NCBI GenBank assembly: GCA_024679645.1
Contig: JAIBCZ010000002.1
Location: 1-51,793 of the forward strand
DNA length: 51,793 bases
Origin: Amphritea sp.
GTDB lineage: Bacteria; Pseudomonadota; Gammaproteobacteria; Pseudomonadales; Balneatricaceae
Direction: 5' to 3'
Each line of letters starts with the position of its first letter. Positions within the stretch are counted from its first letter, which is position 1. Shown here in pieces: positions 1 to 7,078 of this stretch. The translations under genes were made by a program, and so were the position numbers. The notes beneath the pieces were generated by a model. That model made no database searches, had not been told where the DNA came from, and worked only from the letters and a program-made list of their open reading frames with translations.

Positions 1-199
1 ATCGCAGATTTTCTCTGGTTTGGCTGACCCTTTTATTATACTAAAAACGACTATTTAATAGATTTCGACGTTAAGACTGATTGATCATAAAAGCACAATG
101 GATAGTCCAACAGGTAATCAATAGTTTTCACACAGTCTGGGCACAAAGCATATATAAAAAGAGCGCTGAATTGGCTCTCTGTGGTGTTTTTTCTAGCAA

Positions 200-306
200 G
201 GAAAACGAAGTTTTCCGTCGAGCCACTAGCAAGTGACGCAGTCACGTTCTAGCTAGCCGCGTAGCGGCGGTCTGCCTGGTAATAAGCGTTCCGCTTATTA
301 CCAGGC
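200..306. repeat. Cluster of four tight triloop hairpins beyond the 3' end of flgT
   Basis: Four inverted repeats lie almost end to end. GGAAAAC-GAA-GTTTTCC (200-216) and GCCGC-GTA-GCGGC (256-268) are perfect. GTGAC-GCA-GTCAC (233-245) can be extended with bulges by CTAG/CTAG arms at 226-252. A perfect 15-bp stem with loop TTC (274-306; GAA on the minus strand) contains the flgT stop codon and its last codons. The last stem could act as transcript end protection or a weak terminator for flgT, although no T run follows. The first 199 bases of the window show no recognisable gene. Confidence 0.8.
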
Positions 307-1518
307 GATAACAACATCATCCGGTTGAATATTATAAACCGCCCCATCCTCAGACAAACGGCCTATCGCAAACATCGGCTGTACTTCAGTAACGGTTAGT
401 GTTTTGCGGGTATTGGTAAGTTGCACATGGCTGCGCATATCTTCAGTAAAGAAGCTGGATTTACGGTAGACCGTGAGCTTATCTCCAGCGTTTATCCCGG
501 CTAAGGCCCCGGCGTTAAACCAGAGAAATTTGCCGTCACTTTTCGTTATGCTGGCTGAAAAGGGCATGCAGCGAAGCTCATCATTCAGATCGGAAGTAAC
601 CTGACTGAGCAGTTCTCGAGTCTGCTTGCCGTAGTCCTGACGCCAGAATTCGGCGCTGGCAAAACCGGGACGTGCTTCGGGTTCGAGGTTCCAGCGGCCA
701 GCGGTTGCATACTGCTTGCTGAAGAGTAGAGCGCCAGAGAAGCCATCGTGGATATACAGGTCAAGGGCCAGGCTTCGCAAATGCCGCTTGCTGCGATAAT
801 CCATTCGATTATAGAAATCGATCAAAATATTCCGCTTTGGATCAGTGACGGAGCTGTCAGACATAGTCAGATCTCGAATCACCCCGGAGACAATGTATTG
901 CACATCCAGCTGTCGGGTGTGGTCAAGTACCGTAGTCAGAGCGCCGGCACTCAGCTGTCTTGTCGGAGCGGTTGATGCCGTTTGGTGAACGTTGAGCATG
1001 CCTGCGTTTAGCGCTCGAAGATTGCTTGTCTGATTAATCTGGTTACTGAGAATATTGCTCAGCTCGGTCTGGATGTTACTGAGATTACCCAGATTAGCTT
1101 GCTGTGGGTAAAGTAGAGGAAAGGCGGTGATGGCGACGGATTTTTGATACCCATGGCCCGATACTCCGGCAGGGCAGCCCTTTTCGAAATCGACGTTAGC
1201 ACGAATTTTTACCCATAGCGTGCGTCCCTGAATTTTTTCGTCCAGCACCTCAATATTGCTTACCATGCCGAGGGTGCTCACCTGCATATTGTCGATACTC
1301 AGTACCCCCTGATTAATGGTCTGGGTACTGCTGACAATGGCGCTGGCCTGAAGCGAAGCCTGTTGCGTGGCGTTCTTAATGGCGGCCTGACGGGCAGAGT
1401 CGAGATCTTTGTTAAATATCAGGGCTTGTCCCTCTGCTTCCATCGTGACGGCATGCAGTGACAGGCTGATAAAACTAACGATTAAAGCGGCGAGGATACG
1501 TAGCATAGAATTAAACAT
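298..1518 (-). CDS. flgT: Flagellar assembly protein FlgT (H-ring component)
   Basis: FlgT-type periplasmic protein that builds the H ring around the LP ring of the polar flagellar basal body in Vibrio-like motors, and stabilises sodium-driven rotation. The 406-residue ORF begins with a signal peptide (hydrophobic stretch about residues 5-22, ending SLHA). It continues with the FlgT N-terminal segment (EAEGQA, then an alanine-rich helix and DNMQVST), a middle domain, and a C-terminal domain with FNAGALAGINAGDKLTVY. The length fits the family. The gene diverges from flgOP, whose products are its usual partners. No clear ribosome binding site precedes either candidate start (Met1 or Met5). The C-terminal codons fall inside a perfect inverted repeat, so the end of the protein may vary between relatives. 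Identity is confident; the start is less so. Confidence 0.88.
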   Translation of the reverse strand: MFNSMLRILAALIVSFISLSLHAVTMEAEGQALIFNKDLDSARQAAIKNATQQASLQASAIVSSTQTINQGVLSIDNMQVSTLGMVSNIEVLDEKIQGRTLWVKIRANVDFEKGCPAGVSGHGYQKSVAITAFPLLYPQQANLGNLSNIQTELSNILSNQINQTSNLRALNAGMLNVHQTASTAPTRQLSAGALTTVLDHTRQLDVQYIVSGVIRDLTMSDSSVTDPKRNILIDFYNRMDYRSKRHLRSLALDLYIHDGFSGALLFSKQYATAGRWNLEPEARPGFASAEFWRQDYGKQTRELLSQVTSDLNDELRCMPFSASITKSDGKFLWFNAGALAGINAGDKLTVYRKSSFFTEDMRSHVQLTNTRKTLTVTEVQPMFAIGRLSEDGAVYNIQPDDVVIAW

Positions 1519-6969: not shown

Positions 6970-7078
6970 AATGCAAATTTTTAAATCCACACATGTTACC
7001 GACACATACTCTTGGGTGCCGCTTGCGGTTGGGGTATGGGGTGCATGGAGGTCTAACCCTAAACTTTAGGAAATTATA
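6970..7078 (+). promoter_or_regulatory. rpsB 5' leader, probable S2 autoregulatory element
   Basis: The long untranslated leader before rpsB contains a hairpin-prone stretch (acacatactcttgggtgcc, ggggtatggggtgcatgg) and then GGAGGTCTAACCC just ahead of the true ribosome binding site. This resembles the conserved gammaproteobacterial rpsB leader, in which GGAGGCATAACCCC takes part in a structure that lets S2 repress its own mRNA. Resemblance is from memory of the E. coli leader; exact boundaries are not known. Confidence 0.6.

Follow-up and report, generated by a model that had tools for sequence, protein, structure and literature searches.

A dispersed, genus-specific family of GNA-loop hairpin arrays with covarying stems behind Amphritea genes

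The hairpin cluster that follows a flgT-like gene in the Amphritea window analysed here (the whole 51.8-kb stretch of DNA) almost certainly belongs to a dispersed, genus-specific family of hairpin arrays with covarying stems. Copies are dispersed through the genome and restricted to the genus, they keep a fixed orientation to the gene upstream, their linkers and loops are conserved, their stems covary, and their sites are common to species.

The hairpins behind the flgT-like gene and the anatomy of the unit

A sequence-only reading of the window had pointed to four consecutive triloop hairpins at 200-306, all of which were located there. On the plus strand, the orientation in which the array loops read GNA, the array is bordered 5' by a T-run (186-192), and this run is followed by the heptamer linker CTAGCAA (193-199; consensus CKAGCNA), which is common to copies across the genome. 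Hairpin 1 (200-216, GGAAAAC-GAA-GTTTTCC) has a 7-bp stem and a C-GAA-G triloop, the linker GTCGAGCCACTAGCAA (217-232), made of two heptamers, leads to hairpin 2 (233-245, GTGAC-GCA-GTCAC; 5-bp stem, C-GCA-G triloop), and the linker GTTCTAGCTA (246-255) lies between this and hairpin 3 (256-268, GCCGC-GTA-GCGGC; 5-bp stem, C-GTA-G triloop). The 3' side is marked by a GGTCT border (269-273), the same border as in other copies. From the linkers they have in common, these first three hairpins read as units of one array starting at the T-run.

The fourth hairpin (274-306, minus strand) is a gene-end palindrome with 15-bp arms. It does show GAA on the minus strand (TTC on the plus strand), as had been noted; its closing pair is, however, G-C in place of C-G, and it is not a unit of the same kind as the other three. 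Its right arm (292-306) holds the stop codon (298-300), as had also been read, together with the two last sense codons of the gene at 298-1518 (minus strand), called flgT in that reading and which we take to be flgT-like, whilst the left arm (274-288) is an inverted copy of the right. The array follows the 3' end of this gene, and in the flgT sense its 3' UTR runs from the palindrome with the stop codon through three C(UNC)G-loop hairpins, with CUAG-containing linkers between them, to an A-run.

A chance origin had been judged unlikely, and simulation agrees: four triloop hairpins with stems of at least 5 bp within 110 nt occurred in none of 200 first-order Markov simulations of the 51.8-kb window, and once in the real window. 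Folding of both strands, suggested as a check, gave the same picture, the RNA folding of 190-316 scoring z = -5.05 (plus) and -4.97 (minus) with none of 200 shuffles folding as well.

Throughout the family, units are put together from a heptamer linker (CKAGCNA), a short stem without mismatches, a triloop of the form C-GNA-G and a second linker, GT(T)CKAGC, and arrays are ordered, in GNA orientation, as T-run, CKAGCNA, hairpin, GT(T)CKAGC..., hairpin, repeating. Stems are mostly 4-7 bp and start with G-C, loops are 3 nt, and heptamers can occur in tandem (contig C179 of the window's own genome; a related 7-mer at the G006 flgT site). The GNA loops first noticed in the window proved to be a property of the whole family. 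A search with the 5' linker only, loop unspecified, recovered 121 hairpins in 251 linkers (reversed control: 1 in 114), and 102 of the 106 triloops among them were GNA, a fraction somewhat inflated because part of the stretches had been picked with GNA patterns; in linker-defined units the loop orientation was 239 GNA vs. 0 TNC. A second class of hairpin, with CTTTTT-type loops (GTCACGCTTTTTGTGAC), occurs with the same linkers at loci of the own genome and G016, an example being GTCACGCTTTTTGTGACGTTCGAGC, with relatives such as GCAACGCGCTTTTCGTTGC.

DNA mini-hairpins of extraordinary stability follow the C-GNA-G rule (PMC4686876), and the d(GCGAAGC)-type mini-hairpins (PMC4686876 and references therein) have the same loop with its middle base free; their stability is known as a property of synthetic DNA. 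Nearest-neighbour energy models do not score triloop sequence, and the RNA and DNA parameter sets score the triloops alike, save one in the RNA set.

Copy number and spread among genomes

The window's own genome is a 2.33 Mb assembly in 288 contigs (76% complete). BLAST of 170-320 against it found 26 places, and a sequence model based on 18 copies matched it 53 times at E ≤ 1; this one array model was built without structure and served only for copy finding. A first unit finder was loose (385 matches vs. 284 in the reversed control), and a strict finder was used instead (104 vs. 7). Strict units are those with linker and loop fixed. As only 5-bp units with exact linkers are counted, true unit numbers are higher than the strict counts, which reached 51 in G016 and 68-102 in six other array-rich genomes (backwards control pattern 0-2), 11 in G009, and 0-1 in the clade G008/G012/G015. 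Array copies number from dozens to about a hundred or more per Amphritea genome, and the proposal of a dispersed REP-like repeat is upheld both in the own genome and in array-rich relatives.

A single-unit covariance model run on 146 related genomes from 65 genera gave many matches in Amphritea only, with one or two weak matches each in three genomes of two other genera. Similarly, a pattern scan of 84,980 species genomes found matches only in Amphritea and in one unclassified Oceanospirillales MAG. In a FlgT tree, G001, G002, G003 and G014 form the deepest branches; G001, G003 and G014 had neither a covariance-model nor a strict-pattern match, and G002 had two weak model matches. The array-poor clade G008/G012/G015 is nested among array-bearing species, for which loss of the arrays in that clade would be the simpler reading. 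The arrays are not essential, since this closely related clade lives without them.

The only plasmid match was to an Amphritea japonica record of chromosomal appearance, and no phage or viral carriage of the array was found. The record, the 94-kb 'plasmid' pJCM14782 (NZ_AP025762.1; L201, L202), carries the core genes nusA, infB, rpsO, pnp, ftsH, dksA, tyrS and pcnB and a tRNA-Ala near its start, and could represent either an unusual second replicon or a piece of the chromosome that was separated during assembly. In the own genome, many arrays are found close to a contig end, at most a few hundred bases away (e.g. C155:188, C193:188, C49:164, C242:182, and also C202:68, C229:22 and C171:12058 of 12177), and the window opens 187 bases ahead of its array. 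With so many arrays near contig ends, the repeat probably breaks this assembly. Contig C49 has arrays at its start, beside what seems to be the gene that in relatives is convergent to flgT.

Position behind genes and the search for a mover

Within array-bearing stretches of five genomes, 181 of 185 arrays were intergenic and 4 lay inside called genes. For the 94 arrays with a stop codon as the nearest gene boundary (≤120 nt), the GNA strand was antisense to the gene in 90 and sense in 4 (p = 3e-22), a count that rests on gene calls by a simple script and on stretches picked because they bear arrays, with some arrays being mutual orthologues and not all independent. The bias held in tandem gene contexts alone (39 antisense vs. 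17 sense, p = 0.005), and the median distance from stop codon to array was 28 nt in these gene-end arrays. The gene 3'-end position seen at flgT is therefore the rule for the family. The annotated A. japonica record has one usable array (within 150 nt of a stop). It is antisense to a convergent YciC-family gene and 4 nt away from the stop codon of this gene, which by direct reading of the sequence is supplied by the GGTCTA border of the array itself. On the other side, a TTTT run lies directly 5' of 62 of 115 arrays, vs. 98 of 816 random intergenic points.

Because the orientation to the upstream gene is fixed, the reading that fits best is a transcribed 3'-UTR structural element, a REP/BIME-like hairpin block behind the stop codon, which we favour tentatively and put a little below an even chance. 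The array would form the 3' end of the transcript of the upstream gene, where, as for REP/BIME, the hairpin block may shield the mRNA 3' end and separate neighbouring transcription units; REP hairpins behind genes have been discussed as barriers to exoribonucleases (PMC12306157). Against this stands the loop rule, which is that of stable DNA mini-hairpins (PMC4686876) and applies on the strand opposite the mRNA, a feature that an RNA role leaves unexplained. The energy models skip triloop sequence and so do not separate an RNA from a DNA role.

The same position behind stop codons would also suit a transcription terminator of the upstream gene, and hairpin clusters have been proposed to end transcription (PMC8355165). 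We consider this very improbable, as no U-tract follows the array in the gene sense, the far border being an A-run, and no terminator-like site was found on either strand of window positions 1-700. Terminator-type palindromes do occur within ~92 nt on the T-run side (30 of 180 arrays vs. 8 of 125 random intergenic stretches); these are separate from the array.

The arrays could instead be a non-autonomous, single-strand DNA mobile element. By analogy with IS200/IS605 TnpA and RAYTs, an HUH-type or other enzyme would recognise the GNA hairpin and the CKAGC foot and place copies next to T-runs and gene ends. High copy number and hairpin-plus-foot anatomy agree with this, as do the T-run often found at the 5' border and loops that obey the stable DNA mini-hairpin rule (PMC4686876) in one orientation (239 GNA, 0 TNC). 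The RAYT/REP-type transposase link that the sequence-only reading had suggested did not hold, however, since Y1_Tnp genes are neither directly flanked by arrays nor match them in distribution: of 30 Y1_Tnp loci only 2 had model matches in the vicinity, in each case at a distance of at least several hundred bases, arrays occur in G009 without a Y1_Tnp hit, and G008/G012 have Y1_Tnp genes without the repeat. We rejected a RAYT as the mover on these grounds, and also a reverse transcriptase, as RVT_1 was present in only 4 of 18 genomes and did not track the repeat. GC skew in G016 places the origin near 0 and the terminus close to 1.93 Mb, and array strands look balanced on both halves when judged by eye from the table, with no lagging-strand bias of insertion apparent. 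Array sites are mostly common to species, so recent movement is not evident, and simple mobility leaves the 90:4 gene orientation unexplained unless insertion were coupled to transcription or to terminators. Taken together, we regard a mobile element as unlikely, if still worth serious weight.

On both sides of the Y1_Tnp gene of the own genome (RAYT-like; contig C240, L023, 1357-1983, minus strand) lies a palindromic repeat of another, GTAG type (GTAGGTTGGGATCGTAATCCCAAC, with a related copy; about 1320-1345 and 1998-2025), so that a classical GTAG REP family seems to be present in this genome alongside the GNA arrays. An integron-like cassette array was considered and set aside for the dense cluster at 3.199-3.218 Mb of G016, where the translations read as ordinary core genes. 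Integron attC sites are likewise structured single-strand hairpins in repeated arrays. Unlike these, the Amphritea arrays sit between ordinary core genes and no attC-type core sites were seen in them.

Stem turnover, gene-end palindromes and comparison with known repeats

Linkers and loops are conserved, whilst stems vary freely yet stay complementary. With linkers and loop kept constant and three pairs of the stem free to vary, perfect complementarity was found in 169 of 200 units (84.5%), vs. 15.3% expected with shuffled arms, with 15 different stems in use. In a curated unit alignment 96.9% of cells pair (75.0% in shuffles) and the covariation score is 0.589 (0.184 shuffled), with none of 500 shuffles reaching either the score or the pairing fraction; the open-stem test is the cleaner of the two, as the curated alignment was partly picked for pairing. 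Single unpaired cells comprised 16 G.T and 12 A.C (p = 0.57), a balance that does not discriminate between RNA and DNA or between the two strands, and as wobble pairs show no strand preference, selection at the RNA level leaves no visible mark. The sequence-only reading had raised the prospect of stems destroyed by uncompensated changes in close strains. In relatives, the stems are instead kept paired by compensated changes.

Comparison of orthologous arrays shows that site and borders are kept between species whilst stems and unit numbers vary. The flgT array is present in the window genome, G010, G011, G007, G004 and G017, absent from the flgT site of G013, G012, G015 and G008, and apparently degenerate in G009; in G016 the site has the gene-end palindrome only, and in G006 it has 7-mer repeats in place of the array (L133; about ten copies of GAGTGGC/GAGTAGC directly after the flgT stop-codon palindrome). 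Hairpin 1 has orthologues in G010, G011 and G004 and a diverged one in G007. The stem of hairpin 2 is GTGAC/GTCAC in the window genome and G007, and GCGAC/GTCGC, a compensated change, in G010, G011 and G004. The loop of hairpin 3, in gene sense, is TTC in G010 and GAA in G004 and G017, an exact inversion.

Template switching is described as leaving two marks, homogenised arms and inverted spacers (PMC8604942). Both are seen in the arrays, a likeness to the quasipalindrome mutagenesis treated in PMC8604942 and PMC7202029. The Amphritea case would differ from template switching as described there in acting repeatedly on one dispersed family and in copying host gene ends into palindromes. Hairpin 4 is such an inverted copy of the flgT 3' end, with one arm carrying the codons GCC TGG TAA, and related flgT palindromes are found in G007, G010 and, imperfectly, G004. 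The palindrome of G011 differs, with TGTCGTGATCTC of its own coding end copied around a TTGGT loop, and those of G006 and G009 are shorter and come with a changed last residue of FlgT (W in most species, H in G006, Q in G009). From these differing palindromes we infer repeated fold-back copying of the coding end. By script, stop-overlapping palindromes were found at 3 of 46 genes with an adjacent array vs. 5 of 191 others; two of those five lie beside array linkers by eye and a third is the G016 flgT site, and an association between palindromes and arrays is thus suggestive.

Added to a transcribed 3'-UTR element, template switching by DNA polymerase at the hairpins would let stems stay perfect and yet turn over, selection would act on loop and linker, and some switches would copy the neighbouring coding end to give the gene-end palindromes. 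The hairpins could also be a passive product of replication error, in which template switching and local duplication perfect hairpins in poorly constrained gene-end DNA with no benefit to the cell. Perfect arms, loop inversion and inverted copies of gene ends would all follow, and the loss in one clade also fits, as do the segments with arrays that are duplicated in tandem in G011 and G017. Nevertheless, unselected template switching also inverts spacers, which sits poorly with the 239:0 loop orientation and with linkers kept while stems vary, nor is a 90:4 gene orientation expected from it, and we think a purely passive origin rather unlikely. The tandem segments have a period of about 205-210 bp in G011 (L181, G011:C1:368000-382000, 749-2043; seven or so copies) and ~159 bp in G017 (L183, G017:C20, 1931-2422; four copies). 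A further proposal, which we rate as quite improbable, is that the hairpins are made and not merely kept, with fold-back DNA synthesis, guided by CKAGC feet and GNA loops, repeatedly rewriting short stems at gene 3' termini and so giving an oriented array. Array stems, if this were true, would be local copies, the adjoining gene's end included, and not descendants of one stem.

Amongst known repeats, the RAYT-associated GTAG REPs, BIMEs and REPINs (PMC3733652, PMC3116915) are likewise short, high-copy intergenic palindromes found mainly downstream of genes, and they also share with the arrays compensated stem changes and mosaic clusters. The Amphritea arrays differ from them in having the feet CKAGCNA and GT(T)CKAGC and no GTAG foot, in free stems with a fixed loop and linker, in an orientation locked to the upstream gene and in that no RAYT link was found; their units also run head-to-tail, whereas those of the RAYT-associated repeats are mainly opposed pairs. 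CGTC REPs (PMC3733652) resemble the arrays in that no dedicated transposase is known and in that many Amphritea units are followed by C-GTC (stem end plus linker). By their description, CGTC REPs have stems of 8-9 bp that start with AT pairs, loops of 4-5 nt, and unpaired tails of which most fit CCA (PMC3733652), unlike the stems of mostly 4-7 bp starting with G-C and the GNA triloops of Amphritea. The array is therefore REP/BIME-like in copy number and place, and lacks defining features of both the GTAG and CGTC REP super-families. Positions 100-400 had no match to a curated Rfam covariance model up to E = 1; the only gathering-level match in the window was t44 RNA (RF00127) at 6970-7057 on the plus strand (72.2 bits, E = 2.6e-14). 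A literature search, with most subscription journals outside its range, found no description of the Amphritea array.

A REP-type family is normally identified by stem conservation and by a foot linked to a transposase. In the Amphritea array linker and loop are fixed, stems are free but paired, the orientation is locked to the upstream gene and no sign of the usual transposase was found, and this family makes it testable what selects the loop and the foot. It also offers a natural, repeated record of template switching, including inverted gene-end copies by which the final codons of genes may be altered.
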